From contig JAULBX010027772.1 of NCBI GenBank assembly GCA_032358255.1, forward strand, positions 1-34,341: 34,341 nucleotides of DNA, in the 5' to 3' direction. Source of the stretch: Heterotrichella gracilis (Eukaryota > Sar > Xanthophyceae > Tribonematales > Xanthonemataceae). The translations under genes were made by a program, and so were the position numbers. Shown here one piece after another: positions 333 through 34,341 of the stretch. The number at the start of each line of letters is the position of its first letter. The first letter of the stretch is position 1. Under the pieces are notes generated by a model. The model searched no databases. It was not told where the DNA came from and saw nothing but the letters and a program-made list of their open reading frames with translations.

Positions 333-489
333 GGTACCCGATGAGTGCCCCCCCTCCATCTCTGCCCTCATCACCGCATGCACTGATGCCGATGCCAGCA
401 GCCGCCCACCCATGGACCAGGTCATTGCATGGCTGAGGGAAGCGGTAGAGCAGGGGGAGGAAAACGACCAACTTGGAGGGGATGAGTAG
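333..489 (+). CDS. Terminal exon of a TKL-type protein kinase (5' part missing)
   Basis: This is the last exon of a protein kinase; it starts one base into a codon after a polypyrimidine tract and CAG (331-332 is the AG) and ends at TAG 487-489. The 52 codons read VPDECPPSISALI...RPPMDQVIAWL, the end of the C-lobe: the Val-Pro-x-Glu-Cys-Pro helix, the conserved Arg of the RPxM motif and the last helix. The same module ends K1 and K2 further right, but here the protein stops about 20 residues after the kinase fold with a short acidic tail, without the long tail of K1/K2. The preceding exons are not visible in 1-332, so they lie left of the window, or this is a gene fragment. The catalytic core cannot be judged. 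Confidence 0.7.
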
Positions 490-525
490 GGTGCTGCCAG
501 GGGAGGAATCAGAGCAAAGGGAGGG

Positions 526-735
526 GATGGATGGAGGTCATTGCCGGGCTGAGGGGACAATACAGCAAGGGGAGGAGACAGACCATGAGAGGAGTAGGCT
601 ACCACTAGCGGATAAGCAGACCAAAGGAGGGGGTAGGCTGCTGCTAGGCCAAGGCCCTTGGCAAGGGAATGGTGGGGCTGAGCCAGGCAGTAACCAAGGG
701 GGGAATCAGTCCAAGGGGAGGGGAAGGCTGCGGCG
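526..735 (+). repeat. Two decayed tandem copies of the terminal kinase exon tail
   Basis: The exon tail at about 405-489 (ATGGACCAGGTCATTGCATG then GGCTGAGGG and an AG-rich run) reappears at about 526-600 as ATGGAGGTCATTGCCGGGCT followed by the same AG-rich run and a TAG. A weaker form follows at about 665-735 (GGGGCTGAGCC, CCAAGGGGAGGGG). They lie beyond the stop codon and are not continuous with the frame. Confidence 0.55.
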
Positions 736-996
736 GCGGCTGTATATGATTAGTGGCTGTGTACACTAATGATTCAAATTTAATTTTGCATTACTTGTAT
801 AACAACTCAAGCTGCAATGGGGTAGCCTCATTGTGCTGGACTTAGCTGAGCCCCCATTTCACACGACTTGCCCACAGGCGCCGTGGGCGTGGCCACCATC
901 TTTTTACTGTTGTCACTTGTTGCTGCTTTGGTAAAGTATTTTGCTTCGCGATGTGCATGACGCGCACAATGATTGGGCTAAATGATAAAGGCTAAT
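736..996. other. Gap between kinase fragment and duplicated F-box gene end
   Basis: Mixed-composition sequence without a convincing exon, RNA gene or repeat. Confidence 0.3.
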
Positions 997-1510
997 GGTT
1001 GACGGTGGCGACAAGAGGGTATGGGTGCACTCCTTTGTGCCCTGCCCCGAGCTGGATGCGCATGTGGAAGGTGGGTGGCAGCTGCACTGCCCTCCTGCCA
1101 TGTGCTACCAAACAAGGTGCAGCGCATGGCAGGCGCAAATTGGGTGGGGCTGCCAGTAGCGCTCTGATGTGCCTGCGCTGCATGACATTCCACAGCGTTA
1201 TCTCTGGATGTTGCGCAGATAAGGTAGCTATTTTGGGTTGCAGTTTAAAAACTGCAGCCTTTTGGTGGATGTGGCAGGTCATTGAAGGACTGTGAACGAG
1301 TCTGTGGAACAATGGGCTGTCACAACATTGACCAGCATCGGATAATTTCTATGAAATATGTTGCCACAGTGTGACACAGCCTGTGGCAACATTTTGAAAT
1401 GATTTCAAATTTTGAAATGATTTCAAATTTTGAAATGATTTCAAATTTTGAAATGATTTCAAAATTTGTCAGGGTTCCACAAGGCAATGCCCTTACCTAG
1501 GGTTCATGAG
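997..1510 (+). pseudogene. Decayed copy of the 3' end of the F-box/LRR gene
   Basis: From 997 the sequence follows the F-box/LRR gene end at 4304 onward: the coding words VDGGDKRVWVHSFVPCPELD are present in both. In this copy the frame is then lost through small indels (the region equivalent to the last 25 codons does not translate). Similarity continues past the stop codon into 3' flank (the GGATGTTGC words, the TGGCAGGTC-TTGA-GGACTG words, and CCCTTACCTAGGGT near 1490 matching 4814). So a segment of about 0.5 kb was duplicated. The copy carries an AT-rich hairpin array (1391-1462) that the other lacks. The left break is near 997; no promoter or start belongs to it. Confidence 0.75.
1391..1462. 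repeat. Four perfect 18-bp units, each a near palindrome
   Basis: The unit ATTTTGAAATGATTTCAA is repeated four times without change, followed by a fifth broken start. Each unit contains the inverted arms TTGAAAT and ATTTCAA, so the array can form a series of small hairpins. Confidence 0.9.
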
Positions 1511-2238: not shown

Positions 2239-4472
2239 ATGCAGCCCCTTTTGGCCCCCCTCACCACCCAGGAGAGGGCAGCAGTGGTGCCGCTGGTGTG
2301 CAGGGAGTGGTATGCACTCAGCCAGGGGCCCTCGCCATTGTGGGACACGGTAGAGGTGCGTGGGCAGGATGTGGGAGCTACAGTGGGTGTAATTGCTTGT
2401 ACTACCTTCTAGGAGCTACAGTGGTTGTGGTTGCTTGAGCATCCCAGCGGCAGCTCCTCAGGAATTCAGTGAATGGAACTTGTGATATCTCACTCATTGT
2501 GGCAAAGTCAACTGTGCTGCACCTGTAGAAATGACATTAACTGCCTGCCTGAGGGGTCAGACCAGTTGATGGACTCTTGACTTTGAGCATGCACTTATTT
2601 CCATCTGGCTGTAAGGCACTTGTGCAATATTTCATGGCAGCGCTTCACTGTAATGTCTACCTGGAGCTGTGGACCCCGATAACACAGTGTAATTTGAAGT
2701 AAATTGAATTATACACATTGCCCATATGCCATGTATTGTTAGATACTCCAATAAACCAATGCTTATGCTTGATATGCACTGGTAACACCAACATGAACCC
2801 TGTGCCCGCAGGTGACTTTCTCCCACCCCTCCTTCCTCCCTTGGCTGGAGTCAGTGCTGCCCAGCATACGCCACCTGGCAATCACATGCGCCAACCCCGC
2901 CCTGCCACCCCTGCCCCCATCCCTGTCCTGCGCCACCAGCCTGCGCCACCTGGCACTCACCGCTGCGCCCATGGCCGCCATCGTCTTCCTCTCCCTTGCC
3001 CCGCACCTCACCCACCTGGCGCTGGCGCTGTCAGCAGAAGCAAGGGAGTGTAGCGAGGGCCAGGGCTGCGCGCTCATGCGTGAGCGCATGCAGGGGCTGG
3101 CAGCGCAATTTGGCTGCCTGTCCAGCCTGTCACAGCTGCAGCACCTGACCCTGGACATACCGGAGCTGGATGGGGAGTGGAGATGGTTTGGGGTGGGGGT
3201 TACAGAAGCAGAGGCTGGGATGGTCGCCTATCAAGCCGTGTCAGACAGCCTGCATGTGCTGACGGCCCTCACATCACTGCACCTGGCTGGCCTTCCCTTC
3301 CCCACCAGCCTTGACTGCTTCTCCCACCTGGAGGAAATCAGCCTCTACTTTGGAACAGATCTGGCCAGCTGCTGCCACTGCATGCTGCAAGCAAATGACC
3401 CCGTGTGGCCTCAGAATTTGCTCCCCGGCTGCAGCACCACCTTGCGCAGCGTCACTTTTGGCAAGCGGATGGGTTCAGGGAATGTCTATGGCATGGAGCT
3501 AGATCTGCCCCTTCGAGTACTGCACGTCCTCCCCTCCCTGTTCCCTGGCCTTTCCCACCTTGCACTGAGGCGTGTGCAGAAACACGAGGAGGACAAGGTG
3601 TCCATCAGTAACTTCACCAGGCTCAGTGCCCTAACTGCATTGGGGTTCTGGGTATATCCACGATACGACGGTCCAGCAGACGACTATTGGGACACATGTG
3701 TGCCTCCATGTGTGGCATCCCTCACCAACCTTCAGAGCCTGACAGTCATTATAGACACAGCAATACGCGGGCGTGGATGGAGGTATGATCAAAACATTGA
3801 TCCTATTTGGACATCCGCTTTCCAAACCTCGCATGCCTGACAGAGCTTGTGATTGGTTACGATGTTGTCAAGATGGAGCCCTTGCACATGGGCGATGGAC
3901 TCACTACCCTGACAGCGCTGGAGAGGCTGGTGGTGGCGCACACAGATTGCAGCAATGGCACAGGCAACATGGAGGCACCTATGAGCTGCCGGGTTAATCA
4001 CTGTCTGAGCGTTGTTGGGGTGGTGCACGGCGTGTATGTGTTGGACACGTACATTCATTCACTTTATGACGAGCTTGGAGCAGGAGAGGCGCAGTATTAC
4101 CACTGCTACGCTGGAGCAGGAAAGGCGCAGCGTCACTGCTGCTACATTGAAGCACACAGCGAGGATTGTGCGTCTGCGAAGACAGGGGTGAGGTATGAAG
4201 AAGACATGAAGGTGGCTATGGCTGAAGCAGCGCCTGTGTTGGTCTGGCTGTGGGAGCACCTGGAGGATTGCCCGCCACGTGTCTGCATAGAGGTTGGGGA
4301 AGGGGTTGACGGTGGCGACAAGAGGGTGTGGGTGCACTCCTTTGTGCCCTGCCCCGAGCTGGATGCACAGGTGGAGGGAGGGTGGCAGCTGCACTGCCCA
4401 GCTGCCATGCTGGTGGACAAGCTGCAGCGCATGGTGGATGCAAAGTGGGCGGGGCTGCTTGCGGCGCTCTGA
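2239..4472 (+). CDS. F-box / leucine-rich-repeat protein, with apparent frameshift
   Basis: F-box proteins hold substrates for SCF ubiquitin ligases; LRRs usually bind the substrate. Exon 1 (2239-2355) reads like the F-box core: LLAPLTTQERAAVVPLVCRE, then WYALSQGPSPLW. It ends in phase 0 at a GTGCGT donor; the acceptor CCCGCAG gives exon 2 from 2812. Exon 2 codes for irregular leucine-rich repeats (SIRHLAI, SLRHLAL, HLTHLAL, QLQHLTL, ALTSLHL, NLQSLTV). Between 3801 and 3830 the LRR signal moves from one frame to another: the first frame stops at 3838-3840, while the second (DIRFPNLACLTELVIGYDVV) runs to the stop at 4470-4472. No GT-AG intron repairs this, so it is a frameshift, a sequencing error or a broken gene. 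The C-terminal part ends in a region with many acidic and Cys residues. The ATG at 2239 is tentative. A decayed copy of the 3' end lies at 997-1510. Confidence 0.65.
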
Positions 4473-6288: not shown

Positions 6289-9200
6289 TTAGCGGCGGGC
6301 AAAGCCGTAGTCCGCCTGTGGGGCCGCTGCTCCCCCGCCTCCCGCTTCCTCCCCTTGGCCCTCATCCAGCCACCCCATCTGGATGCCCTGCGCCTGCGCC
6401 AGGCCCAGCATGCCCCCCTTCATAAATGCTGCCAGCATTTCGGGGCTCAATTCCGTCCCAGAGCCATTGCCACTGCCAGTACCAGACTCGCTGGCGGTGC
6501 TGCCAAGGCTGGTATAAGGCACATGCGAAACCCCGCTGGAGGGGCCAGGGTCGCTCCCTGCCACACCCACCATGCACCGCTCCCCCTGCCACCGCCTGCC
6601 CCGGAGGGAGTGCGGGAGTACTGCGGAGGGGAGGTCGCCTGGCTGTCCACTCCCTGGGATGGCATGTGACGCTGACACATTCCCAAGAGACAGTGCCCTC
6701 TTTTCATGGAGCCAGGTGGGCAGCGGGGCCAGCGGGGGTGTCTGCCCCGGGGGGGCGCACCTCTCCAAAACTGCGATGATTTCTTCCATGCTGGGCCTCT
6801 CCCCGGGCCCTGGCAGGTTGGCGCTGCAGATGAGGCCAGCGATGTCTGGGGGGCACTCCTCGGGAACCCTGCGACACCCCGCACAAGGGTTTAAGGTATT
6901 GCAGGGCACTCCTTGGGAAACCTGCAAACCATATTAGTCCAGCCCGCCCCCTGCAAACCCCAATCCTACACATGCCGCAAATAACCAGGAGCTTGATGTA
7001 TGGCTGATAACAATTTACTGACGAGGCCTTGTTGATATATATGATGATCTGCTGACAACTTCTGATACACACCCCACACAGCATCCACCTTATTGACTAC
7101 CCAGCTGACCCCTCACAGGCCCAACACCCTCCATTTCGACCAAATTTGGACCAAATGTTCCCCCCACGCAAAACTTAACACCCCTGCCTTTTCCACCCAC
7201 CTGGGCCTGCGCAGCAAGCCCCTGCTGGGCCTCTCACAGGTGACTATCTCCCACAGCAGCACCCCGTAGCTGTACACGTCAGCGCGCGCGGTCACATGGG
7301 CCGCATCGATCATCTCCGGCGCCATCCACGCCCATGTGCCCGCCATGGCCTGCGCCTTGGATGTGTACTGGCTGTGCATGATGTGCGAGATGCCCACGTC
7401 CGCCACCTGGAGAAGGGTATTGCGTAAGGGTTTTGGGTCACATGGGTAGGGTTTTAGATGGCCTGCGCCTTGGTGGACTGGCTGTGCATGATGTGCAAGA
7501 TGCCGGATGCAGGCGTGATGTGCTAGGGTTTGGGCTCGTGGTAGGGGTTTTGGTGGGTGCGGGTGAGCTGGTGGTGCATGGCGTGGGGAACGCCGACGGC
7601 CCATGGGCGTGCGCTGAGGTTTGAGGATCCTGGGAAGGAATGAGGGAAGTGTGGTACATGAATCACGAAAATACCCTTAGTTAGGGTGCCGCAAAGTGCA
7701 CTGACCTAAGATAGCAATGTGCCGGTCCTACGCTGGAAAATGAAAACTTGTTTCAGATTTGGGGTGATGGTTCAAACATCATCTTTGGTCATCATTACAT
7801 CTCCAAGAGGGTTTCTCTGTTTGCAATCCTCAAGTAAGGACCATAGCACGCATACTCTTAGCTAGGGATCACACCTTGCACACCGTGCGCTTGGAGCCAG
7901 GACGTGCACACCCCAATGACCCCCCCGTCTTGATTTCCACCCCCACCTTTGCCTCCTTCCCAGCAGCACGTTGCACTATTCACATCCAGGTGCACGACAG
8001 GGCACCACCCACCCACAACCCTAGCTAGGGTCTTCCCCCTACCCCCACCTTTGCCTCCTTGCCCAGCAGCACGTTGGCGCTCTTCACATCCAGGTGGATC
8101 ACGTTGCGCGCATGTAGGTAGGACAGCCCGCGAGCGACATGCAGTGCGATGCGCCAACCCCTGCAATATGCACACCATGACCCTTTACAGGGAATACGCG
8201 GAAAGACTCTGGGTTTAGGCTCTAAACTTAAGGGCGTGCAGGTAGGACAGGGCACGCGCAACAAGGATTACATGCGTCAACCCCTGCGATATGCACAACA
8301 AGCGCCCCTCAGCGACCATGTCAATGGGTGATTGTAATTGTTCCCACACCTATGACTGACACCCTAGTCCCAGCCCCAGTCCCTAGCTGACACCTTACAC
8401 CCTGACCCTAGTCCATCACTGAGACCCTAGTCCATCACTTGCCGCCCACCACCCACCATGACAGCTATGCATTGGCACCATTGCCTGGCCCCGAAGCTGT
8501 ACATTGCCAAGAGAAAAAACCCAGGTCGCAACCGAAACCACTAACCCACAGCGGATCATCATCATCATAAGCTCCACCAAAGTCCTCCCCGTTTCCCTAC
8601 CTGCTGTACCACCCCATCTCCCGCATCCCGTACTTCCCGATTGCGCTGTACAGGTCGCCAGCTGTCATGAGCTCGGTGACGATCAGGGTCCTCCCGGGGG
8701 TGAAGCAGGCCCCCAGGAATTGCACAATGTGGGGCGAGCTGGGGGCAAGGGGGGTACAATCAGACAACCAGGTGGGGGTAGCGGTGCCGCAGTGGCCATG
8801 CTTGACGCCATGTGTGCACACACCAGACGCTCTTCCGAAGTCCAAACTCATATGCCCAGGACTGTAATCGGAGGTTCTTTTGCCCTCCCAAAGAAAATCA
8901 GGGCGACAATTTCTTTATCGTAATGTTTGTTTGTTTGTTTTGGGTGACAAGTTGATAGACAATCCAGTGCTAGCAAGGAAGATGTGGGTTGACAGCCGAA
9001 TGCACCATCACGCTCTACAGGGTGACTCCTGTGGCTTGTTGGGGCGTTAGGGTTGTTAGGGTTTCTGCCTTGCCTGCAGGACCGCAGCAGCTCCACCTCT
9101 CGTATTATGTTCGCCTTCTCGGTGGCTGTCATGGTCAGGGGCTCAAGCACCTTGATGGCGCAGGGGAGGGAACCGTCCAGCAGGCCCCGGTACACCTGGG

Positions 9201-11962
9201 GTGGGCAGGTATTGGGGATGAGGGTTTAGGGTGGGCAGGTATTGGGGATAAGGGTTTAGGGTGGGCAGGGTTTAGGATTTTATGTGCCAGCCCCCGGTAC
9301 ACCTGGGGAGTGGGTGGGTGGGTGGGGGTGGCAGTGCGGATGAGGGCGGGGGCCCATGGCGACATGGCATCCTGGTCGGTGGGTGACCAGCCATAATGGA
9401 TGGCAGGGGTGCATAATGGATGGCGGTGGGCATGCGGGTGTGGGGGTATGGTTTTTGACATCCTGATTAGTGGTTGTATGATCAGTCATGAGAGGTTGAC
9501 ATCCTGATCAACAGGCTGACCAGCCACACGGGGTGGCAGTGAGGTGTGGGTGGGAGTGGGGAGTGCGTGCATGGGTATGGGTGATGACAGTCTGACAAGT
9601 CATGGGTGATTGAACAATGCGGTCAGGGTGGCAGACGAGCATGTCAGAGCTGGCATGGGCCATCACGGTTTGGTGGTAGAGGGCTAGCAGCTAGGAGAAC
9701 CCTAAACCCTAAAGAGAAGCTGACAGCTAGGAGCGACCGCACCAGGCAGGCTGTCCATCATCGTCCTGTTCAGTGGATCTATAGCAATATATATTGTGAT
9801 GTTTCAGGCACTTCTCAACAAAGCGCTGGCCAAACAGCCAACAAACCTCCAAACCACACTGTTTCCGATCCCCGGTGCCCCCACAGCACTACTTGTAACC
9901 TGCGTAAAGCGCACTTGACCCACTGCGGCTCATACCTTGCTCCAATACAAACACAATCTTATATTAATACATATTCTCAATACATATTCTCAATACAATC
10001 CTACCGACTTGTCCCACACGCACCGTGCCAAACGTTCCCTTGCCCAGCAGGACCTCCTCCCCGCTTCAATACAAACATAGTTTCATATAGAAAAAAATAT
10101 ATTTTTTTTCAACACGATTTTTCCTACGGACTTGTACAAGGGTACTCACCGTGCCAAATGTGCCCTTGCCCAGCAGGATCTCCTCCCCGCTGCTGTCCCT
10201 GCTGATGGCCACCCTGTCAGCCTGCAGGTGCCACTCCAGCCCCTCAAAGCTGTGGCCCCTGCTCGCCACGCTGCGCTTGGGCAGGCTGGTCCCTAGGCTG
10301 GACCTGTCCCCGGGAATCAGACAGATTCGTGTAAAAAAAAAAGAAATGGACATGGAGAAAAGATACGGATAACTACCCAGCCTGTCCTTGAACAGGCCCC
10401 TTGATGAGGAGGAAGGGTGTTTTCAATTTAAATTAAATTTATATTGTTTAGGTTAGTTCCATGCATCATAGCAATACAGCCAGTCTGGCATTCCCCCCAG
10501 CACCGTTTGAACCACCTATTGATCCCACTGCGACCTTGAGACCCATTTTGAATAAATACTAAATTCATTATGTACCGATAAATACATATTACTATATTAC
10601 TAAGTACTAATAATCAAGTAAGAAAGGAAAAGGCAAAGCGCTCCCGCCCGCTACCACTGTCTCCCACCACACCTGTCTCGGGAGCGGGAGCTGGGCACTG
10701 TGAGGTGGGCCCCCCTCCCTTGAGACGTGGGCGACTGCGCGCCTTGTGATGGTGGGGGGCTGGTGGTGGCTCTGGACCCGGTGGGGCGCCCTGGCGTGGT
10801 CAAAGCTGCTGCCATGCCCCTGAGGCTCCGGGAGAGGCGCTGCACCCTGCGTGGTGCGGGGTTTAGAGGGTTGGGCCAGCCCCAGGGTTTAGAGGGTTGG
10901 CCCAGCCCTAGGTTTAGAGGGTTGGGCCAGCCCCAGGGTTTGATACCTGTGCACCAAAAGCACACTGCGCCACGTTTTCATCCGTGAATAACATTTGGTC
11001 AGACGCACACACACACGACATGTCTTCAAGAGCTCCAGGAGACATTGAACATGGACTGTTGCATGTTGCAGTTGCGTACGTGTGTTCTTTGTGCCCCATT
11101 GATATGGCAAGGGTAATAAGAATATGACTTGACTAGATGTATCAACGTAGCTGTGGACCATGCCATGCCTGCCCAGCCCCCATGAGAGCCTTGCAGTGCA
11201 CTGGCCGTGTAGTTTCAAACCCTCCCAGGTCCTTGCCTCCAATGCGCACACACAATTCCAACCCCACTCGTCATGACCGCAGCCCATGCAGTACTAGTAA
11301 TGTGCCTAACCCTTCAAGTGTGCCACCCTTTGCGGAGCCTGTGCCCACTCACCAGGGTAGGTGCGCTATCCAAAGCAGAAGGGAGGGTCCCCCCACTCTA
11401 GCCACCAGCCTGTCCCCAAACCACACCACCGCCACCACCACAGCAGCCAGCAGGAGTGTCCCAGCAACATCGTACAAAGTGGTCGGCGTGGCATACCCTG
11501 AAGGGAAGGACACAGGTTTGTCGGTGCAAACCCTAAACCCTAAACCCTAAAGTGCGAGGATGCAAACCCTTGGCCCTCGAGTGAAGCATGCGTCTGGAGT
11601 CAAGGTGATTCCTGACGACCATGAAGTTGAGGGTGGGAAACATACAGTGTGGTATGGACGTGGTATGTTGCGTGCTCCTACCGGGTTCTGGGTACCGCTC
11701 AAGGACCAGCCACCACCTCCCAACTTGACCTTCTCACACAAGAGGATAAGACTAAGTTAAGGATAACACTAAGTACCCAGTGCACCCCCCAGTACAACTG
11801 TGACGCATACCCCTTCCCTATCCGCAGCTGAGGACTGCACTACCAAGCAACAGGGACTGCCACACCCACAACCCCCTACTCACCTCCTGCCTCCCCAACG
11901 CCTCCCATGGTGCTGGTGCTGGTGCTGGTGCTGGTGCTGGTGCTGTTCTGGTGGGGCGGGGC
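6289..11962 (-). CDS. Receptor-like TKL protein kinase K1 (first exon not located)
   Basis: Single-pass membrane Ser/Thr kinase candidate. Exons in order: 11962-11884, 11497-11353, 10846-10673, 10303-10150, 9195-9074, 8738-8601, 8160-8049, 7406-7201, 6868-6289 (TAA); all phases fit and give 569 codons plus an unseen start. Numbering from the first visible residue: a short outer segment with six Ser-Thr pairs (about 7-18); one membrane helix (about 36-53, TLLLAAVVVAVVWFG); a Ser/Pro-rich juxtamembrane part; glycine loop GKGTFGT (178-184); Lys199 in CAIK; Glu of REVE (217-220); catalytic HLDVKSANVLL (293, HRD with Leu for Arg); DVG (311-313, DFG with Val for Phe); MAPE (336-339); and the RPSM C-lobe end. 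A 150-residue tail follows with PEMLAAFMKGG and a YGF end. The catalytic Lys and Asp are present, so it may be active. The intron after 9074 starts with GC. Paralogue of K2 upstream of it. The ligand is unknown. Confidence 0.82.
7457..7515 (-). repeat. Decayed copy of the DVG exon head in a K1 intron
   Basis: The + strand words GATGGCCTGCGCCTTGG and ACTGGCTGTGCATGATGTGC match exon sequence at about 7344-7390. The copy lies just upstream (in gene direction) of the exon's real acceptor at 7407-7409, and is flanked by TAGGGTTTT words. Confidence 0.6.
7945..8000 (-). repeat. Decayed copy of the HLD exon tail plus donor
   Basis: Matches 8047-8101 of the real exon (CACCTTTGCCTCCTT, CCAGCAGCACGTTG, CACATCCAGGTG), about 102 bp away, with substitutions and small deletions. 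It includes the donor GTGGGGG. The equivalent copy exists in K2 (15789-15846). Confidence 0.7.
8232..8297 (-). repeat. Decayed copy of the HLD exon head plus acceptor
   Basis: The + strand words GTGCAGGTAGGACAG and CGTCAACCCCTGCGATATGC match 8108-8174 of the real exon and its acceptor (GCGCCAACCCCTGCAATATG). This is an upstream copy in gene direction. Confidence 0.6.
10012..10066 (-). repeat. Copy of the K1 glycine-loop exon tail plus donor
   Basis: CACCGTGCCAAACGTTCCCT and CCAGCAGGACCTCCTCCCCG match the real exon end at 10147-10192, about 125 bp away, with few changes. It would code GKGTFGT-like residues again. A shorter copy of the next exon's edge (CCCCCGGTACACCTGGGG, about 9286-9303) lies in the same intron. 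Confidence 0.7.
10861..10937. repeat. Three 25-26 bp minisatellite units in a K1 intron
   Basis: The unit is GTTTAGAGGGTTGGGCCAGC followed by CCCAGG; three copies lie next to the acceptor of exon 10846-10673. The unit contains a telomere-like GTTTAGAGGG word. Confidence 0.85.
11528..11551. repeat. Short telomere-like array (CCCTAAA)
   Basis: Three CCCTAAA units in the intron just upstream (in gene direction) of K1's membrane-helix exon. Far too short for a chromosome end. Confidence 0.85.
11911..11946 (-). repeat. Six hexamers in K1 coding sequence, giving six Ser-Thr pairs
   Basis: TGCTGG repeated five times followed by TGCTGT on the + strand. On the coding strand these read AGCACC in frame. 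The repeat can change length without breaking the frame. Confidence 0.8.
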
Positions 11963-13867
11963 CTGCTAAGCTGTATGGTAAGGCCTGTGGCAGCAAGAGA
12001 GTGGAGAGTAGGGTGTGAGACCCTCGGGCTAGGGTGTGTGCTGTCTCGTATGGGCAGCTAAAGACACCACCCCTCGACTCGTGAGATGGACAACTTTCAT
12101 ACACCATCGTGTGGCGTACCTGGCTCCTGGGATGACAGGGCGACGCCAACCAAGGAGGACGGTATCAGGCTATGTCTCCAGTGGGACGTCGACGGGTTGC
12201 CGAAATTAGGCCACTTTACCAGGCCTTTTCACCGGCACGCAGGACAAAGCGCCCGGGCGAGCCAAAAGCCACGTCCCAGACATTAAGCCCACGGCCCGGT
12301 GGCACTGGCCTGCTTTACAGCTGGTTACGAAGGCTCGGGACACCGATAAAGGAGACCAAGTTTGGCGTTGCGGGTCAGGCGATAAGGCATGTGTCCAGCT
12401 CAATCCGTGCGGCACCACTTGCTGTCGACCACCGGTAAGACCGGACCGCACCTAGACTGTGGACGAAAAGGTTGGTCAGAAGACTAAAAGACTATGCTAA
12501 GCACGCTGCAGAGGTGTAAGCGGCATACAGTATGCCACACGACCCAAGAAAGTCCTTTGGGCACACGATATGTCAAACCTCCTTGTGTGCAAAATTCCGA
12601 CGGCATTTCCACCATTTTTGCAAAAACCTCCTGGATTTTCAAAACGCATGAAAGTTTTCAAGGTCCCCCTCATAACGTTTCACTGGTCCCAGAATCTCTT
12701 CTTTCAGGGTCTGTAACATTACAGGATAAGCTTGCTGCCAATAAACAGTTGTGCGTGCAAGCAAAGCCATGATCACACCCTAGCAACCACAGTACCAGTG
12801 AACAGCTTGACCTGAAAACAAATCTGCACCTGAAGATAAATATCTGCATCCGCACGAAAAACTTTGAACAACCTGGCGCTTGCTCAAGCACAACTTAATC
12901 TGGGCCATACCTCAGTATATCTCAGAAGGGCGCTGCATATGCATCACAATGGTGTCTACCCCCCTCATCATGAACCATGGTATTAGCTGTGTTCTGGATA
13001 CTTTCCATACGATAAACTGCGGAAAAGGCTTGGAAACGATTGGGACACGCTCGACTGAAATAAGTTTCGGCTGAAAAACGCTTGACTGAAATATGACTGA
13101 AACTGTCAGTGGAGGAACGGATTTTTACTGGAGCACTCTTGACTGTGAATCTGCCTATGAAAATTCATGTCCTAACAAAAATAACCTGAACATTTTGCAT
13201 TCGCATTAAGCGCCATGACCTCACAAAGAGAACTAGTCCTCCGGAACATCCTGTAATCCTGGGAGATGTGTAGCAAGTGTGTGACTGAGCATTGCTATAA
13301 ACACTGAAAATGCTTGACCGAAATGTGATTTGACTGAATACTCTTCTATATCATATCAAGCTGAAAACTGCTTTGAAGGTTCTGTGCTGTCAAAACTGCT
13401 CCTGAAGTTGCTGTATGCTGCATGCAGTATGCGTACAACAACTAACTGCAGACCGTAGCAAAGACCCTGCTTTAAGTATGCTTGCATTTACTGTTGCTCT
13501 GCAGTTGGACATGAAAGTCCCGTCCTATCAAACATGGGCCTTTGTTAGGCAGCAGCAGAAAAATGCAGGCGCTTTGGTACATCTCGATGGCCACCAGGTG
13601 GAAACCCTCTACAAAACCTTGTGCTAGGTATCTACTTCAGTGAACAACATTTGTCCACATCATGTCTTGCAACCGGGTGGAAACGACTGGTTGGCAAAAC
13701 CACTGGGCATTGCACCGGCTGACCAGGTGGTACATTTTGAACTACAGTCTTGGCACCAAAATACAGACGGATTTACACCGCCCAGTCACTGCTTGTAACC
13801 AAGGAATAATTAACCTAGAGGTGGCTACACAACAGGCCACACAAAATCCGTGATGCACGGTATTACA
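11963..13867. other. K1 upstream region and gap to the K2 stop codon
   Basis: K1's first exon (ATG and signal peptide, ending in phase 0) should lie here on the - strand, but no candidate was convincing. About 12450-13860 is AT-richer, with scattered GACTGAAA words between about 13050 and 13370, and shows no supported gene. Confidence 0.35.
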
Positions 13868-23600: not shown

Positions 23601-26245
23601 ACCCTTGCTGTGTGTTTCCAGGCCGGCAAGGCTTCCTTCTCGTGGGCATGGGTGCTTGACGAGCGGCCCGAGGAGCGTGCAAGGGGGGTGACGGTGGATG
23701 TGGCCATGGCTAGGTGGGGAGGGAACCCAGGGCTGCGGGGTGAAAGGGGTGGTGGCAGCTCCACAGGGGCATGTTTCGTGCATCACAGGCTGATCCACAT
23801 GTGCACTGGTACACGGCATTTCTACATGGCTGTGTTACACATGGTGAACACATGAAACATCAAGCGCAAGAGGCAGATGTGATGCCATAATGCATCTTGC
23901 CTTAAATGTTGTTGCACGGGCCTCCTTTGCGGGACGCCACGCCACGCCACCCCACCTCTGCTAGTCTTGACCCCTGCCCTCTGTCCACCCCAGGTTTGAG
24001 ACCCCAGCCTTCAATGTCACCCTGTTGGACGCCCCTGGCCACCGGGACTTTGTACCCAACATGATTTCAGGCGCAGCCCAAGCCGACGCTGCCTTACTGG
24101 TGGTGGATGGGTCACCGGGGGGGTTTGAGTCTGGGTTCGAGCCGGGCGGGGAGGTGTATGGGGGGTCGGGGGGCGGTCAGACGCGCGAGCATGCGCAGCT
24201 TGCAAGGAGCTTGGGTGTTGAGCAGGTGGCGGTGGTGGTCAGCAAGCTGGATGTGTGTGGATACTCGCAGGTGGGTGCTGGGGGAGGTGGGAGGGAGGGG
24301 GGGAGGAAAGGAGGGGGATTGGGTCCATTGTGGACCATGGCGTAGCAAAGGGGTTGTTGGGGGGTGGGACCTATACCAATGGGCGGAGTGCACACCTCGT
24401 CAGTATATATTCAGTACTTATAAAAGCAAGATTAGCAGGGCTATATAAGTGATATTATATACAAGTAATCCTCAGTGGGATCTGTGATCCACCTGTGCTT
24501 GTAGATGGGTGTAAATGCGCAAAGCTACATGTGCATATTAGATGCGCTCCTGTGCCTGTAGATGGGTCTCGATTACCGACTGCGAGAGCCTGGCGTTTGC
24601 AATGCAAACCTGCATGACCACTCTTAGATGCCATACAGCGCTGCCTCAATTCTGCGGTCCTGCCCACACACGCAACCGCTCTCCACCCTGCCCCCCCACT
24701 ACCCTGAATCCCATGATTGCCATCTCACCCACCCCCACCCCTACCCAGGAGCGCTTCAAGCAAATCAAGGCCACCCTACTCCCATTCCTCAAGACCTGCG
24801 GCTTCAAGCCATCACAGCTGCAGTGGCTGCCTGCGGTGGGGCCGCTGGGCGAAAACCTAATCGCGCCGCCGGGAAACCCTAGCCTGCGCTCCTGGTGGTC
24901 TGGCCCCACCCTCCTACAGGCCATTGATGCCTTCGCTCCCCCTGAGCGGGCGGTGGACAAGCCCCTGCGGATGCCCATCACCGACATCTTCAAGGGGGCC
25001 AGGGGGGGTAACGCGGTGGGGGGGAAACTAGAGGTACGTTGGCACTTCTTGCACGGTTCCTTTCCGTACTGTTGAGGGAACCATATGCTTGCACTGCTGT
25101 GCAAATACCTCCGCTGTGGGATGTTGTACATGAGCTAGAAGCATTTGAACCTGCATTATTTACTTGCAAGGTCTGGCCAGTCAATTCGGATATTTGAGCT
25201 CCAAGCTTGTACATATAGCAGTCAACACCAAACTCCTGGAACCCAACCCTAAACCCCTGCAGGGCGGGGCGCTGAAGGCCGGCACCAAGGTGGTCGTCAT
25301 ACCCTCAGGCGCAACGGGGAGCATCAAGTCGCTGGAGGTGGATGGCACCCAGGCCCCCCTGGCCCGGGCAGGGGACAGCGTGGACGTCACCCTACAAGGG
25401 GTGGAACCAAATGTGCTGGTCAGCGGGTCGGTGCTATGCCACCCTGATTTCCCCGCCCCCCTTGCTGCCGCGTTCGAGGCACGGGTGGTGGTACTGGACG
25501 TGCAGATGCCCATCCTCAGGGGCCAGCAGGTGCGCAAACCCCAAACCCTAAACCCTAAATCGTAAGCCTTATACCCAGCCACAATAGTGGTGCTGGATGT
25601 GCAGATGCCCATTCTCAGGGGCCAGCAGGTGCGCTGCGTGATGACACAATGGGTAGTTATATCAGATCCATACTTATATCATAACTTATATGCCATGCAG
25701 TTCACGCGATAGCCCGTGTGGTATCATCTTCATGGTCAAAACGGATTCCCCTTCAGGTTTTGAAGTAGCCCTGCCTAGAGTATGCTTCAGGTGGACAAAC
25801 ATGCCCTTGTTGATGTGCAATTGTGGTTGATAAAACTGAGGACGTGGGTAATACCGGCCAAAGACTACTGTTCTTTTGCTGTTGAATTTTGCCCCCGCTC
25901 TGTTATTGTCTTCTGTCGAATATATCCTTCCTTTCATACATTACTTCCCCACCGCACAACGCCCTTCCTCTCCCTTGCCAGGTCACCATTCACGCCCATG
26001 CGGCGCGCGAGGCAGGCCACATCTCCCGCCTCATCACCTTACTGGACCCTAAGACCGGCGAGCCCACGCGGAAAAACCCAAGGTGCGTGGCCCAGGGCCA
26101 GACTGCGGTGGTAGCCGTCACCCCCGGGAGGGCGATGGTCCTGGAGGAGTATGGGGATTATCGCTCCCTGGGACGGGTGGCACTGCGCGACGGGGGCCGC
26201 ACGCTGGCGGTGGGGATTGTGACCAAGGTGGTGTTGCGGCACTGA
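20649..26245 (+). CDS. HBS1: HBS1-like translational GTPase (ribosome rescue), ten exons, 653 aa
   Basis: Hbs1 pairs with Dom34/Pelota to split ribosomes stalled on mRNA. Exons: 20649-20738, 21569-21620, 22240-22368, 22643-22726, 23088-23509, 23622-23713, 23994-24270, 24749-25033, 25263-25529, 25982-26245 (TGA); all phases fit. The N-terminus is acidic ([15 protein letters not shown]), as in known Hbs1. A long low-complexity Pro/Gln/Ser linker follows. The GTPase has [12 protein letters not shown] (225 on, the Hbs1 form of the P loop), RARGVTVDV in switch I, DAPGH (302-306), and SKLD (373-376) where NKxD is usual. An insert (about GGEVYGGSG) sits before GQTREH. Two beta-barrel domains follow, with [11 protein letters not shown] and the end [11 protein letters not shown]. 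Length is close to the yeast and human proteins. eRF3 and EF-1A have different P-loop words, so HBS1 is preferred. Several introns hold exon-edge copies. Confidence 0.92.
21674..22005. repeat. Four tandem units of about 86-117 bp in an HBS1 intron
   Basis: Units start at 21674, 21760, 21877 and 21966, each with GGCAAGCCCCAGAAGTGGGG or a variant, then TAGGGCTATGCACTGCA-like and CGCATGGGNACCACNTTGTC-like words. Confidence 0.75.
22037..22086 (+). repeat. Decayed copy of an HBS1 exon head plus acceptor
   Basis: CCCCGCAGCCGTCTCCCC through CACCAGGGGGCCTTCCCC resembles the real exon start at 22232-22292 (CCCCGCAGCTGTCCCC, CACCAGAAGGCCTTCCCA), about 200 bp downstream. It runs into TAA after a few codons. 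Confidence 0.65.
22812..22846 (+). repeat. Decayed copy of an HBS1 exon tail plus donor
   Basis: ACAGGCGGTGATAAGAAAGG followed by TGGGCAAAGG resembles the exon end and donor at 22709-22735 (GCAGGCGGTGACCAAAGGTG). Confidence 0.55.
25587..25633 (+). repeat. Near-exact copy of an HBS1 exon tail plus donor
   Basis: GTGGTGCTGGATGTGCAGAT through GGGGCCAGCAGGTGCG repeats the exon end at 25488-25534 with only a few silent-looking changes. The donor GTGCGC is intact. Between the two lies a CCAAACCCTAAACCCTAAAT telomere-like run. Confidence 0.9.
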
Positions 26246-27807: not shown

Positions 27808-29220
27808 CTACATGCACATGACCGAGGCCTCCTCTATGATGAGCACAATGTCCTCGATGCACTGCACCCACTTTGGCAGCGGTTGCTTCACCAGGACATC
27901 GTTGATGTTGCGCACGCTGGCCGGCAGGTTGGTGGTGAACCAGGGGTGGCTCATGATCTCCGGCACCTGGATGCGCGCCTCGGGGTCAGCTGTGAGCATC
28001 CTCCTGAGCAGGTCCTGGCAGGCGGGCGAGACGGCCTTGGGCATGATAAAGTCCGCGGTGAGGATGCGCGGGAAGATGTGCTGCAGCCTGACCACGTTAT
28101 TGGCTTGCTCATCCCCGGGGCGGTAGAACGGGAAGGCGCCTGTGACCATCACGTAGAGCATCACGCCACAGGACCAGATGTCCGCCACTTTTCCATCGTA
28201 CTCGGTGTGCATGAGCACCTCTGGCGCGATGTAGTCCGCTGTGCCTGACAGGGTCTTGGGCCGGGAGTCAATGTGCTCGTTCTTTGAGTATCCAAAGTCG
28301 CAGATCTTGAGCAGGGGCACCGGTGAGCTCCCATCCAGCAGCGTGTTCTCCAGCTTGATGTCCCGGTTGGCGATGCCCTTCCTGTGCGTGAAGTCCAGGG
28401 CTGTGAGGAGCTGCTGGAAGAACCAGCGGGCCACGTTCTCTGGGAGCCCCTTGCCCACCTGGGAAGTAAGCCACACCAGGCTCTCAGTGTGAGCTTAACA
28501 CCCACACAACAAGGACAAAGTGCAAAGCTCTCGGGCAGCCCTTGGCCCGTCTGTGCAGCCCCACTGGGCTCAGGTATGAGCTACACACCAACACAAAAGG
28601 GCACAGTGCAATGCCCTCAGGCAGCCCTTGACCTCCCAGTGCAACGCCAGCAGGATCAATATGAGCTATGCACAAAGGGTGAAGAGGGTTCCTGCCAGCC
28701 AGCTCAGCACAACAGCTGTGTACAGCTGTGCACAGCAAAATCCTCATTTTGGCAAGGATGAGGAGGCATGGGGAGAAGACATGAACTGAGCGTGGGTGGG
28801 TGGTAGAATTACATGGGTTGGAGGGCAACTTGCAGGTATTCAATGCTACAACAGCTGACGTGATAGCTATGGGCAGACACGCACCAGCACGTTGCTGTTC
28901 TTCAGGAAGTAGTCGCACATATCTCCCCCAGAGATATACTCCATCACGATAGCCAAGTGCCGCTCCGTCAAGAACACCTCCTTCAGCTGCACGATGTGAG
29001 GGTGGACTGCACATAGCCGGTGGTTGAGTATCTCGCGCAGCACGCACTTGTTGATGCCGAACCCCCTGTCCAGGAATTTGATGGCCACGTTCTCATTGGT
29101 GAGCCTGTCAAGGGCCAGGACCACGAACCCGAAAGCCCCAGCGTTCAAGTCCTTCAGTTTGGTGTAGCGCGTGTTTCCCAGCAGCGGGTCGTGCATGCTG
29201 TGCCCGTTGCGTTGCGCCAT
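27808..29220 (-). CDS. SnRK2-like Ser/Thr protein kinase
   Basis: Cytosolic or nuclear stress-signalling kinase of the SnRK2 group (plant osmotic stress/ABA kinases). Exons 29220-28885 and 28458-27808 (TAG), phase 0 junction, 328 aa. With Met at 29220 as residue 1: glycine loop LNAGAFGFV (25-33, first Gly replaced by Asn), Lys48 in VAIK, NRDIKLENTLLDG (143 on; His of HRD is Asn), LKICDFGYSK (162-171, the typical SnRK2 form), YIAPEV, and ADIWSCGVMLYVM. The end, CIEDIVLIIEEAS, resembles the SnRK2 box, and the acidic C-terminal region that ABA-dependent members carry is absent. The frame is open upstream, with another ATG at 29580 (345 bp more, low similarity), so the start is uncertain; 29220 gives the usual family length. 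Catalytic Lys, Asp145 and Asp166 are present. Confidence 0.85.
28521..28650 (-). repeat. Two decayed copies of the SnRK2 exon 2 head plus acceptor
   Basis: The + strand words CTCTGGGAGCCCCTTG (28437-28452, real exon), CTCTCGGGCAGCCCTTG (28528-28544) and CTCAGGCAGCCCTTG (28616-28630) recur with a period of about 90 bp. On the - strand the third unit still reads GGQGLPEGIAL against VGKGLPENVAR in the exon. Confidence 0.7.
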
Positions 29221-30242: not shown

Positions 30243-33200
30243 ATGCCAGGCAACGCCAGCCCCCACGGTCCCTACCACTCCTCCCTTGGCCCCATTTCGG
30301 AGCATGACAACGAGGAGGAAGAGGAGCAAACACAGCTGCTGCTGGAGGGCCACGTGGAGGGGGGGTTGGGCGGCGGCGGCGGTGGCGCCAGCTTGCAGAC
30401 GGCGCTGGAGCAGGAGGCGGTCGGGGGAGGAGGAGGGGGTGGGGCGCACGTGGCGCGTGGGGGGGCGCCATGGTGGGCCTGGGCAGTGCTGGCAGCTGGG
30501 GTACGGGTTTAGGGTTTAGGGTTTAGGGTTCAGGGTTTAGGTTCACGCGTCAGCCCAAGGCTTGCGGTGTGGGATTGGTGCACACGTGTCTACCCTGCGG
30601 AGTTGCCACCCTTCACCAAGGGTGTTAGGGTCTAAATTAGGGTTTTGGGTCCATGCCACTGAACCCTATTGAGGGTCAACGGGAGTCAACGAAAGCATGG
30701 TGCGCCATCACTGCACCACACTCTCGCACATGTTGCGTCAGGGCCCTTCGGCACCACACCCACGCCCACCACAGGTCATGGCACTATCCTAGTAACACCC
30801 ACACCCACACCCACACCCACACACCCACACCCACACCCCACACCCCACACCCACACCCACACCCACACCCACACCCACCCAACAGGTCCTAGCTGTCTCT
30901 TCTGCCGGCGCCGCCTTCCTCCTGCTGTGGGAGGTGGGTGCAGTCACACTTGCCGCCTGGCGCATACAGCTCACCACCATGCTGCTCATGCCGGGAGCGG
31001 TGGTGCAGGCCAGGGCACTGCCGCACCACCTGCGCAGGCGCGCGCTGGAGCAGGTGAGAAAACCTAATGTAAATCCTAGCATAACCCTAAAGCACGATGC
31101 CGTCATGCCGGCGGCAATGCTGAGGCCAGGGCCAAGCCGCACCATCTGCATAGACGCGTGCTGGAGCAGATAAAGAGACCCTAGCGGAAACCCTGGCAGA
31201 AACTCAGCCTAATGGGCCACCATGGTAATGCAAGTACCCTTTTGTGACATACTGACCAGCTCATGCCTGGCATGCAGTGGCCCCTCATCCTGGTCAGCGG
31301 CACCGCACTGGCGCTCCACTTTGGGCTGTGGGTGTGGAGCATACAGCACACCTCGCTGCCCCACTCCCTCCTCTTCGTGTCAACCAGCCCCCTGATTATC
31401 GCAACTGGATCGCTCATACTGCGATTGCCCATCTCACGAGGTGCGCTGCTGTCCCTTCACCTCCTTTTCCTGTGCCCGTTTCAGTGCAAAAAGACCTTTT
31501 GTGCTGGAGTTGGCGACCCTGCGAGGTGCCCCACCGCGCTGCTCCCTCCCCTGTTGTGTCCATTAGTCCCCTAATCAGTGCAATCGGAATTATGACCATG
31601 CGATTCCCGATCTGGGTGCGCTGGGTGCGCTGTTGCCCCTCCTCCTGCCTGTTTGTGTGTTTTTAGCCTACCAAACACGAACAGGTGGCGCCTCCTGATC
31701 ATTGCAAGCAAGACCTTGGCAACGCCATTCCTGCGAGTGCCAACTCACTGTGGTGATGTGTTTGATCATGTCACATGATCATATGGTAGTGATGTAAGGT
31801 CGGTTGCATTCTGCAGGGGAGCTGGTTGGAGCGGGGCTTGGGATGGTGGGCGCAGGGGTGCTGTGCCAGAGTGCGCGCGTGGACCGGGAGGTGGGTGGGT
31901 GGGTGGGTGGCTAGGAGGGTGGGGGCTTTGTTGGCAACAGGGGGATTTCTCGCGGGACGTGGCGCTGCAGGACTGGAAACCCTACCTAAGGGTTGTGGAG
32001 TGCCGCAAAGTGCCTGTCGATTTTCTGCATCCCAGCTTGAACCTGTGCACAGACGCCTCTCTCCCTTCCCCTAATTCCACTCCCCCTGTTGCAGGTGACC
32101 CTGCTGGGTGATCTTGCCTCCTTCGGTGCAGCGGTGGTGTTTGTCGGATACCTGGTGGTGGGGCGCAGGCTCAGGAGCTGGATGCCGCTGATGGTGTACC
32201 TGGTGCCGGTCAACGGTGCGCACAAAACCCTTCTTGGAAACCCTGAACCCTGAACCCTAGATAAGGTGCGGGGTGGATGCCGCTGATGGTGTACCTGGTG
32301 CCGGTCAATGGTGCGCACAAAACCCCTTTTGGAATTCCTAAATCCCAGGACCTTGAACCCTAGAAAAGGTGCGGGGTGGATGCTGCTGCGGGTGTACCTG
32401 GTACCCGTCAATGGTGCGCACAAAACCCTAATGCCTGAACCCTGCATCATGGCTGGTCAGTGGTGCGTGCAAATCCCTTCTGGAACTGCTCACTTTGAAA
32501 TGCTCCACTTTGCTGGCAGCAAATTTCTGACACTGGTGCGCACTTTCTCTGTTTAAGACACTGTGGCTGACACCCTCCTTCCACCCTGTGCCTGCAGCTG
32601 TTGCTGCCTTACTCCTCACGCTGTTGTCCATGGTCTTGGAGGGGACCCGCCCTGGCCGCATTAGTAAAAATTGAAGCTTAAATCAATGTTGCAATTTGGC
32701 TGCAAATTCTCTAAACCAAGTTTTTTGTGGGCACCTTTTCCCTTCACAAATTTGTGGCTGACACCCCCTTTCCACCCTGTGCCTGCAGCTGTTGCCGCCC
32801 TCCTGCTCACGCTCTTGTCCATGGTCTTGGAGGGTACCCGGCCTAACCACCTGGGTGCCCAGGGGACATTTGGCTGGCTGGCCCCGGGCTATGTGCTGCC
32901 CATCCTGTATCTGGCGGTGGGGCCAGGGATCGTGGGCCACGCGGGGTTCAACCTGGTGCTGCGGTAAGGGTTTTAGAGGGTTTTGTTTAGGGTTCAAGGG
33001 AATAGTGTGCTGCGGTAAGGGTCAGGCATCGTGGGCCATGCGGGTTTCAATCTGGTGCTGCGGTAAGGGTCGTAAGGTTTCTATGTTAGGGTTTTTGGGA
33101 AAGTTGTGCTGCGGTAATGGTTATGGGGTGTGTGGTGCTACGTCCGGGTTTTGGGGCTGTATGGTCTACGGGGTCTTGGCGGTGGGGCCGGGCATTGCGG

Positions 33201-34341
33201 ACCACGCGGGATTCAGCCTGGTGTTGGGTAAGGGGTATAATTTCCAAAGGAAAGCTGTTCTGCGGTAAGGGTTTGGGGGGGGTGTGGTGCTACGTTAGGG
33301 TTTTATGGTCTGTGGGGCATTCTGTGCACATGGCGGTGGACCAGGCATCGTGTGCAGGCGTCACCCCGGTGCTGTGGCAAGCGTTGTGGTGTGTGGAGGG
33401 GTCGTTGGTGCCGCGGTTAGGGTTTAGGGAACCACCTGGTGCCCGCAGGAAGGGTTTTAGGCTGAAATCCTTTTCAAAAGATTGCGGCAAGTTTTTGATA
33501 TTGGATTGGAGGTGGAATTGGGCGTTTTTCCCATGTGGCCACATGCCACACGTGCATAGGTGCTAGGTGCGTCACGCTGCGCTGAAACCACTGTAACAGG
33601 GGTCTACAGCAGGAATTGGCGGCCGTGGATCGTTGGTTCCGCTGTTTGCGCCTGTTACACTAGTTTCCGCGCTGTGTTTCGGGCCTGCACCTACGCATGT
33701 CTGGCCCCAGGAGGGCGCTGGGGGGGCGGTGCAAGGGAGGAGCACCACGAAAGGCACTGTTTCTCAACCCTACATTTACAAATACCGTAAACTCTTTCTA
33801 AAGGTGCCTATGCATTTGTTCATGGGCACTGCCAACCGACAGGATGCAGTGCAATCGTCAATACCTTCGCACACCCAGCCCATCAGGATGTCAATAGCAC
33901 ACCCAGCCCATCAGGATGTCAATACCTTTGCACACCCAGCCCAGTCTGAGCACCAAACTTTTGCTGCCGACAGGGATGTTCCTACTCCAATCCCCCTTGC
34001 CCATGCAGGTACCTTCCCCAGGGTTTAGGGCCTAGACTTGAACCCTAAACCTCAATGTGCTGAGCCAATGAAACCCTAAACCCTACTCTCCCTTATCCTC
34101 TCGACTCCCCCTTGCCCCTGCAGGTACCTCCCCCCCTTGGCCATCTCCCTCCCACTCACCTTGGAACCCCTCATAGGGTCTGTCATCGGCTACGCCCTGG
34201 GGGTGTCAGAGGCTCCCCCTGGGTGGACCTACGTGGGGGGTTCCATACTGCTGGTGGCGGTGGCGCTCACCACCATAGCCACGCATGAGCGGCAGGCATG
34301 CGAGGATGTGGGGGTGATGAAGAGGGCGGGGTCGGCTGCCA
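30243..34341 (+). CDS. EamA-type drug/metabolite transporter (DMT), cut by the window edge
   Basis: Membrane transporter of the DMT superfamily; the substrate is unknown. Exons: 30243-30500, 30886-31053, 31278-31440, 31817-31890, 32095-32215, 32789-32963, 34124-34341 (open at the edge); all phases fit, 392 codons seen. Residues 1-70 are a soluble start with an acidic EEEEE stretch and a Gly-rich run. Two EamA halves follow. Half 1 has WAWAVLAAGVLAVSSAGAA, then LALHFGLWVWSIQHTSLPHS and LLFVSTSPLI, the EamA words around helices 3 and 4. Half 2 has LGDLASFGAAVVFVGYLVVG, YLAVGPGIVGHAGFN and LPLTLEPLIGSVIGYALG, then the last helix (YVGGSILLVAVALTTIA). About ten helices are expected. The stop lies beyond 34341. 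Its introns hold the clearest exon-edge copies in the window. Confidence 0.88.
30504..30541. repeat. Telomere-like array right after the donor of transporter exon 1
   Basis: Four to five TTTAGGG units (one as TTCAGGG) beginning three bases after the GT of the donor at 30501. Confidence 0.9.
30798..30880. repeat. CCCACA hexamer array leading into an acceptor
   Basis: About thirteen CCCACA-type units with a few short units, ending directly at AACAG of the exon 2 acceptor (30881-30885). It takes the place of a polypyrimidine tract. Confidence 0.9.
31095..31169 (+). repeat. Decayed copy of transporter exon 2 tail, donor lost
   Basis: CATGCCGGCGGCAATGCTGA through GCGTGCTGGAGCAG resembles 30979-31053. 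The base after CAG begins ATAAAG in place of GTGAGA, so the copied donor is gone. Confidence 0.75.
31556..31640 (+). repeat. Decayed copy of transporter exon 3 tail plus donor
   Basis: GTGTCCATTAGTCCCCTAAT, GCAATCGGAATTATGACCAT and GCGATTCCCGATC follow 31377-31445 (GTGTCAACCAGCCCCCTGAT, GCGATTGCCCATCTC), including the GGTGCGCTG donor word. A weaker third form may follow near 31690. Confidence 0.75.
32273..32430 (+). repeat. Two near-exact copies of transporter exon 5 tail plus donor
   Basis: The exon end (GGATGCCGCTGATGGTGTAC, CTGGTGCCGGTCAACG, donor GTGCGCACAAAACCC; 32179-32230) recurs at about 32276-32325 and 32378-32429, a period of about 98 bp. The donors are intact. Confidence 0.92.
32562..32659 (+). 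repeat. Copy of transporter exon 6 head with a full acceptor
   Basis: TGTGGCTGACACCCTCCTTC, the acceptor CCTGTGCCTGCAG and about 70 bases of exon repeat 32753-32848 with few changes. The frame runs from this acceptor into TGA after about 25 codons. Confidence 0.92.
33013..33385 (+). repeat. Three decayed copies of transporter exon 6 tail plus donor
   Basis: GGGATCGTGGGCCACGCGGG ... CTGGTGCTGCGGTAAGGG (32926-32970) recurs at about 33021-33070 (nearly intact), 33175-33235 (GGCATTGCGGACCACGCGGG, GTTGGGTAAGGG) and 33328-33380 (strongly decayed). Confidence 0.85.
33991..34022 (+). repeat. Copy of transporter exon 7 acceptor
   Basis: CCCCCTTGCCCATGCAGGTA and CCTTCCCCAGGG match the real acceptor at 34107-34135 (CCCCCTTGCCCCTGCAGGTA), about 116 bp upstream; then TTTAGGG words. 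Confidence 0.7.

Follow-up and report, generated by a model that had tools for sequence, protein, structure and literature searches.

The stretch of DNA examined in this study (the window) is a whole contig of 34,341 nucleotides (nt) from the xanthophycean alga Heterotrichella gracilis (GenBank assembly GCA_032358255.1, contig JAULBX010027772.1), referred to as contig C525 of the 68.5-Mb assembly, which comprises 903 contigs. It carries the end of a kinase coding exon at its left, an LRR-like gene, two adjacent paralogous kinases (K1 and K2, 6289-18825), a gene labelled HBS1, an SnRK2-like kinase gene, and an EamA transporter gene. In many of the introns of these genes, the edge of a neighbouring exon is repeated together with its splice site, and these exon-edge copies are the subject of the present study. 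The label HBS1 was taken from the original prediction, an earlier note made on this DNA; Pfam assigned EF-Tu-type GTPase domains to this gene, an EamA domain to the transporter, and a protein kinase domain to K1.

As a control sample beyond the window, 26 ten-kilobase regions and eight kinase loci of 3.5-3.9 kb were used. Region L009 (GC 0.36) was excluded as unlike the other loci, which left 33 loci and the window, or 314 kb. A gene finder seeded with the window and the kinase exons, and then self-trained, produced 61 genes with 438 exons. Among the 377 predicted introns, the 358 with a length of 60-1500 nt were analysed, and the per-gene counts cover 55 predicted genes; the exon models beyond the window are ab initio, and some adjacent genes were fused in them.

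Exon-edge copies in the window and the sampled loci

Comparison of the window with itself at lags of 20-619 yielded 51 ungapped matches (score of at least 18), against 4, 0, 3, and 0 in four equal sets at far lags; such a self-alignment had been proposed with the original prediction, and its outcome agrees with it. For the edge test, the 64 intron edges in the models of the six window genes were aligned to their own intron, and 300 length-matched pieces of introns from the other genes of the window served as controls. The copy in the own intron outscored all 300 controls at 21 of the 64 edges (p = 1/301), compared with about 0.6 edges expected at p < 0.01. By gene, the edges at p < 0.01 amounted to 5 of 16 in K1, 3 of 12 in K2, 6 of 18 in HBS1, 6 of 12 in the EamA transporter, one of two in the SnRK2-like gene (weak, score 16), and none of four in the LRR gene. 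The K1 donor 8049 (p = 0.05) and the K2 donor 15904 (p = 0.04) gave weak values, probably owing to the presence of the paralogue's copy among the control introns. The earlier claim of copies at more than fifteen places is supported by these data.

Similar copies were observed elsewhere in the genome. The first 20 fetched regions, pooled with L009 included, gave 105 near-lag and 3 far-lag matches. A copy of a donor or acceptor edge was present in 51 of the 358 introns, and both of the predicted kinds occurred, with 26 donor and 32 acceptor copies; 14 of these 58 border copies fall in the window. The statement that all spliced genes carry copies is too strong, as 37 of the 55 predicted genes had no border copy at all and the LRR gene had none at its tested edges. 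Matched pairs at the sampled loci were classified as 91 exon/intron, 5 exon/intergenic, 74 intron/intron, 63 exon/exon, and 7 intergenic, many of the exon/exon pairs resembling low-complexity repeats of coding sequence. With gapped chains, the events numbered 67 edge, 20 exon-internal, 31 intron-only, 12 intergenic, and 53 exon/exon. In the gene for ribosomal protein L15e, a border copy hinted at by overlapping matches was looked for and not found.

The 96 pairs with one exon arm ranged from about 65% to 100% identity between exon and copy, which agrees with the graded decay that had been described. Since the matches are diverged to this degree, show small indels in some cases, and recur on other contigs, misassembly, named beforehand as a finding that would refute the pattern, is not a credible source. 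The exon-edge copies in introns are confirmed as genuine.

Structure of the copies, host introns, and telomere words

The copies are direct repeats: at a score of at least 20, 122 direct matches were found near and none far, as is expected of tandem duplication. Copying of filler in both orientations was considered and rejected, the inverted repeats being barely in excess (5 near vs. 1 far at this score; 48 vs. 33 at a score of at least 15). Of the 96 pairs, the 50 exon/intron pairs whose match contains a single border and reaches an identity of 0.78 served to describe the anatomy; the remaining 46 had no border or several, a lower identity, or an intergenic arm. The copy lay on the intron side in all 50 (26 donor copies downstream and 24 acceptor copies upstream), although the intronic location of the other arm was part of how these pairs were selected. 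Gapped extension demonstrated that homology runs through the border and beyond the splice consensus in 39 of the 50 events, with the 95th percentile of alignments at equivalent sites in other introns as the null. Ungapped alignments had hinted that the copying covered exactly the exon part and the splice consensus, an impression that the gapped extension mostly removes.

The 28 younger events had a median homology of 43 nt in the exon and 42 nt in the intron, with about 35-140 nt of homology remaining. Eleven of them were contiguous within 30 nt, and 17 had more than 30 nt unexplained, a few of the latter being second copies in an array; the median was 50 nt. Some events look like simple tandem repeats, and in others the copies are separated by sequence that appears unrelated. 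Some exon/copy examples are 95-98% identical, and the range of identity over the 96 pairs indicates that duplication has gone on over time. One duplication, with a spacer that can be aligned, is common to K1 and K2, and other copies are present in only one of the two kinases, so the events differ in age. A local duplication process, as originally proposed, is supported by pairs of graded age at both donors and acceptors. The affected introns are also longer than the others (medians 376 vs. 273 nt, p = 3e-6), consistent with the predicted lengthening of introns by the copies, though longer introns also give more room for copies.

Telomere words are abundant in the introns. The window holds 30 occurrences of CCCTAAA, where 3.9 would be expected. 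In the sample, introns (122.8 kb) contained 42 TTTAGGG arrays of at least 13 nt, intergenic sequence (96.8 kb) contained 8, and exons (94.7 kb) contained none; 19 composition-matched scrambled units gave at most one array each. The 16-mer TTTAGGGTTTAGGGTT was counted 1863 + 1832 times genome-wide, overlapping places in longer arrays being treated separately, compared with 0 for the backwards pattern and 1 for a scrambled pattern. Thousands of short interstitial telomere repeats occur in the genome, e.g., at window positions 30505-30530, 11528-11551, and 25543-25559. They match the genome's own telomere repeat: on eight contigs, a five-unit TTTAGGG array begins in the first 300 nt, always on the minus strand and so in telomere orientation, and C46 (404,050 nt) has one at its end on the plus strand; the other five-unit arrays are interior (e.g., C640) or at places that were not assigned to a contig end.

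Intronic telomere arrays were nearer to intron edges than random intron positions (medians 58.5 vs. 90.5 nt, p = 0.02), and telomere words in introns occurred about equally in both orientations relative to the gene (TTTAGGG 57, CCCTAAA 66). Telomere-word clusters lay between exon-edge copies in 49 of 200 cases, against 21.8 expected from a locus-matched permutation, and introns with copies carried such clusters more often (length-stratified p = 6e-7). Perfect arrays taken alone showed no significant link to the duplications (7 of 42 between the arms vs. 5.0 expected, p = 0.22). The concentration in introns and the over-representation between exon-edge copies suggest break repair, in which the words might be captured, or added by telomerase, at the breaks. 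Telo boxes in Arabidopsis introns are near the genome average (150.7 vs. 155.2 per Mb; PMC3022908), unlike in this alga, where AAACCCTA is intron-biased, with 1320 per Mb in introns, 289 in intergenic sequence, and 127 in exons. A telomerase-based origin has been proposed for short interstitial telomere repeats inserted at breaks in mammals (Nergadze 2007, PMC2246262) and for telo boxes in plants (PMC3022908), and the interstitial repeats of the present genome are likewise short.

Origin of the copies and growth of introns

The most probable explanation, in our judgement, is that short tandem duplications crossing a splice site are kept when the copy is spliced out and then decay neutrally. 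Short direct duplications across the exon-intron border would keep arising in this alga, probably by fill-in and joining of staggered breaks or paired nicks, a kind of repair that fits the direct orientation and the fillers. A duplication across one splice site would be tolerated because the outer copy stays in frame and splicing removes the inner one, and duplications inside exons would mostly be eliminated, so that selection would act as a filter. As the intronic copy decays like neutral DNA, introns would lengthen and come to hold border copies of all ages.

How far the process is centred on borders depends on the null model. Near-repeat coverage is highest in the terminal 20 bases of exons (donors 0.136, acceptors 0.118), compared with 0.04-0.08 at 41-160 bases into exons, 0.008 in intergenic sequence, and 0.000-0.009 in the far-lag control. 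This centring arises partly because exon-internal duplications are removed and the exon arm decays slowly. When uniform placement of duplications was simulated with removal inside exons and slow decay of the exon arm, edge, intron-only, and intergenic events were detected in the ratio 617:902:802. The observed numbers were 20:5:2 at an identity of at least 0.88 (about 7, 11, and 9 expected) and 44:18:4 at an identity of at least 0.78, where neither the exon/exon events (5 and 16) nor the exon-internal ones (4 and 14) entered the comparison. The excess of edge over intron-only events had p values of 2e-6 to 5e-4 with present intron lengths, 8e-6 to 1e-3 with unaffected introns taken as ancestral lengths, and 7e-4 to 0.015 with unaffected introns of at most 600 nt; it was borderline with fixed ancestral introns of 200 nt (p = 0.04-0.23) and gone at about 150 nt. 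Because of this dependence on the assumed ancestral length, we grade the border excess as moderate and, as a property of the mutation process, unproven. The predicted centring on exon-intron borders is supported more weakly than the duplication itself, as selection and the longer readability of the exon arm would account for part of it.

Several observations weigh against duplication at uniform positions followed by selection. With present intron lengths, this scheme predicts too few border events, and it predicts more intergenic events than the 2-4 ungapped ones observed, although the intergenic deficit is milder with gapped chains (12 vs. 31 intron-only); this double mismatch means that a further bias may exist. 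Exon-internal pieces in introns (4-14 events; 20 with gapped chains) are not predicted unless their borders have decayed. In 11 of the 50 events, some of them 95-98% identical, no significant intron homology was found past the splice consensus. The events are also clustered by gene (chi2 109, 54 degrees of freedom; permutation mean 58, largest of 2000 = 115), and the multi-intron genes without copies include ones in loci L012, L013, L014, L016, L024, L026, and L030. Neither composition nor intron GC explained this clustering, intron GC being a weak gene-level correlate (rho 0.28, p = 0.10). Two organisms in one assembly were also rejected as the cause, since the loci do not fall into clean groups by tetranucleotide or CpG profile, the other matches of HBS1 are only distant (29-49% identity), and the matches of ribosomal protein L15e are confined to one place.

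Break hotspots are a tentative alternative to uniform placement, and we consider them rather unlikely. Breaks linked to transcription or splicing might favour the borders and be repaired by fill-in duplication with telomere filler, so that the centring would be a property of mutation and not of selection alone. Such hotspots would account for the edge events above the uniform expectation at present intron lengths, for telomere arrays that avoid exons and lie near intron edges, for the clusters of telomere words in the spacers, and, as an insertion at the DNA level, for the near-equal telomere orientations. However, the border excess is lost with short ancestral introns, and perfect telomere arrays alone lie between the arms little more often than expected. 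In a related idea, which is possible but likewise doubtful, repair scars would enlarge introns from their borders outwards, and border duplication would be the chief driver of intron growth in some genes.

Other explanations look beyond neutral duplication. The copies might be functional, as alternative exon ends, decoy splice sites, or mutually exclusive exons under selection, and some of them do retain splice sites. Two had even looked nearly all-synonymous, namely the copy at 25587 in HBS1 (by eye) and the lag-191 copy upstream of exon 6 of the transporter, in which six of seven differences are at third codon positions. The differences by codon position were, however, 30/26/58 in 44 pairs with an identity of at least 0.85, 96/66/144 in 41 pairs, and 39/39/55 in 11 pairs, so that third positions make up 51, 47, and 41% of the differences in the three age classes, where our own estimate for a neutral copy against a constrained exon is about 44%. 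The codon-position test on these 96 pairs detected no protein-level constraint, and the copies appear to decay roughly as neutral DNA, which speaks against their being kept as coding exons. As a copied coding stretch contains indels (K1/K2 alignment) and two thirds of the predicted genes manage without any copy, a functional role seems very unlikely. Introner-like or other mobile elements that carry or create the border copies are very unlikely: spacers between copies are sometimes unrelated to the rest of the intron, but the counted pairs join an exon edge with an intron of its own gene. Near-identical introns in unrelated genes were not found among the 358 sampled introns, whose 16 cross-gene matches (E of at most 1e-4, telomere hits unmasked) included eight telomere-like ones and three short palindromes. 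An artefact of assembly or annotation might be suspected from the ab initio models with their fused neighbours and from the window copy 25605-25628, which the gene finder itself called as an exon. It is scarcely credible, as most copies are diverged from their exon, some with indels, and are present on many contigs, and as they hold in hand-checked genes such as HBS1, which is readable in frame over ten exons.

Concerning known systems, two published cases offer comparisons. In the potato RdRp gene, a tandem duplication across an intron-exon boundary made a new intron (PMC4974935). The events reported here resemble it, since one boundary is duplicated in tandem together with its splice signals; in contrast to that single event, existing introns were lengthened, many are affected, and some hold several copies. 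Repair of staggered double-strand breaks, with direct repeats flanking the insert, is a listed route of intron gain (PMC3443670) and may share with the present events the direct repeats around inserted sequence, but the repeats in this alga (about 35-140 nt in younger events) include an existing splice site and yield a longer intron, not a new one. The assertion that no named system describes the pattern is in part incorrect in view of the potato case, which is a single border-crossing duplication in print; for the genome-wide pattern of exon-edge copies in introns, no report was found in the open-licence literature searched.

What seems to be new is how many such events one genome holds, that existing introns grow as a result, and that the telomere scraps are biased to introns. 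To our knowledge, duplications across splice sites are known only as single cases, and intron lengthening outside transposon-rich genomes is poorly documented. Schiml et al. in 2016 reportedly obtained tandem sequence duplications from paired nicks in plants, for which no exon-border bias is known to us; those duplications, which were experimentally induced, are said to be direct and short like the present ones. The border duplications suggest a route by which introns lengthen. One compact genome holds dozens of them, differing in age, next to telomere scraps biased to introns; intron growth becomes countable in this way, and its rate, the filter on survival, and a possible bias of breaks towards splice borders become testable.

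Window inventory and neighbouring features

At the left of the window, the end of the leftmost kinase coding exon and a copy past its stop codon occupy 419-649 on the plus strand, 419-533 matching at a lag of 116 with about 69% identity, so the copy predicted there is present. In K1 (minus strand), the edge test at p = 1/301 identified copies of the acceptor and head of exon 6289-6868 at 6904-6930, of exon 8049-8160 at 8237-8295, and of exon 9083-9195 at 9288-9314, as well as the head of exon 7201-7406 at 7473-7504 (94% identity in the self-match). The tail and donor of exon 8049-8160 are copied at 7939-7992 in the duplication common to K2, as seen by alignment (edge test p = 0.05, with a null that contains the paralogue's introns), and the tail (42 nt) and donor of exon 10150-10270 at 10018-10065 with 92% identity (self-match and edge test).

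K2 (minus strand) contains copies of the head of exon 15015-15220 at lags 108 and 282 (15291-15530; self-match and edge test), the tail and donor of exon 15904-16015 at 15786-15839, common to K1 (alignment; edge test p = 0.04), the tail and donor of exon 16369-16506 at 16313-16355 (edge test), and three copies of the acceptor and head of the same exon at 16542-16830 (self-match and edge test). One K1/K2 exon pair is 90% identical and the other five are 67-83% identical; the flanking intron of the 90% pair can be aligned too, and, to judge from the alignment, this pair and its intron look as if they had undergone gene conversion.

In HBS1 (plus strand), the acceptor and head are copied at 21350-21386 for exon 2 (21569), at 22030-22084 for exon 3 (22240), and at 22458-22495 for exon 4 (22643), and the tail and donor of exon 4 (22726) at 22809-22834, all with edge test p = 1/301. 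Three copies at 21757-22005 are of a tail and donor attributed to exon 2, whose end is predicted at 21692 and was placed at 21620 by hand, and the tail (42 nt) and donor (6 nt) of exon 9 (25529) are repeated at 25587-25634 with 94% identity, both found by self-match and edge test; the telomere-array scan placed an array in the spacer before the exon 9 copy, at 25543-25559. The SnRK2-like gene (minus strand) has an 86-bp tandem array in its intron at 28483-28668 and a weak copy of the acceptor edge 28458 at 28511-28558 (edge test).

The copies in the EamA transporter (plus strand) were all obtained by self-match and edge test. They comprise the tail and donor of exon 2 (31053) at 31123-31182, decayed copies of the tail of exon 3 (31440) at 31556-31755, three copies of the tail and donor of exon 5 (32215) at 32274-32481, the acceptor and head of exon 6 (32789) at 32586-32653 with a lag of 191, copies of the tail and donor of exon 6 (32963) at 33012-33286, and the acceptor and head of exon 7 (34124) at 33997-34019. 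A TTTAGGG array at 30505-30530 on the plus strand lies 4 nt beyond the donor of exon 1 (telomere-array scan).

The named best protein relatives of the SnRK2-like kinase are mostly green algae (Myrmecia, Coccomyxa, Asterochloris, and Symbiochloris) at 58-65% identity; one named match scoring higher is a plant record at 47% identity. These relatives suggest a green alga akin to the trebouxiophytes as the source. Contig C1 (894 kb), the source of L009, has a GC content of 0.36 and a CpG observed/expected ratio of 1.10 in the stretch read, differs from the other sampled loci, and possibly comes from another organism. Short palindromic elements (TAATAAGGTAATAATAG...) are common to unrelated introns in L012, L027, and L030 and resemble small mobile elements.

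Judged by eye, the 3' end of the LRR-like gene is apparently repeated about 3.3 kb upstream as a gene fragment (window 995-1150 and 4306-4460); four of the far-lag matches, those at lags 3000-3599, would be compatible with this repeat. Between these two places, at 1391-1468, an 18-bp unit (ATTTTGAAATGATTTCAA) that is largely palindromic forms 4.3 near-perfect tandem copies.

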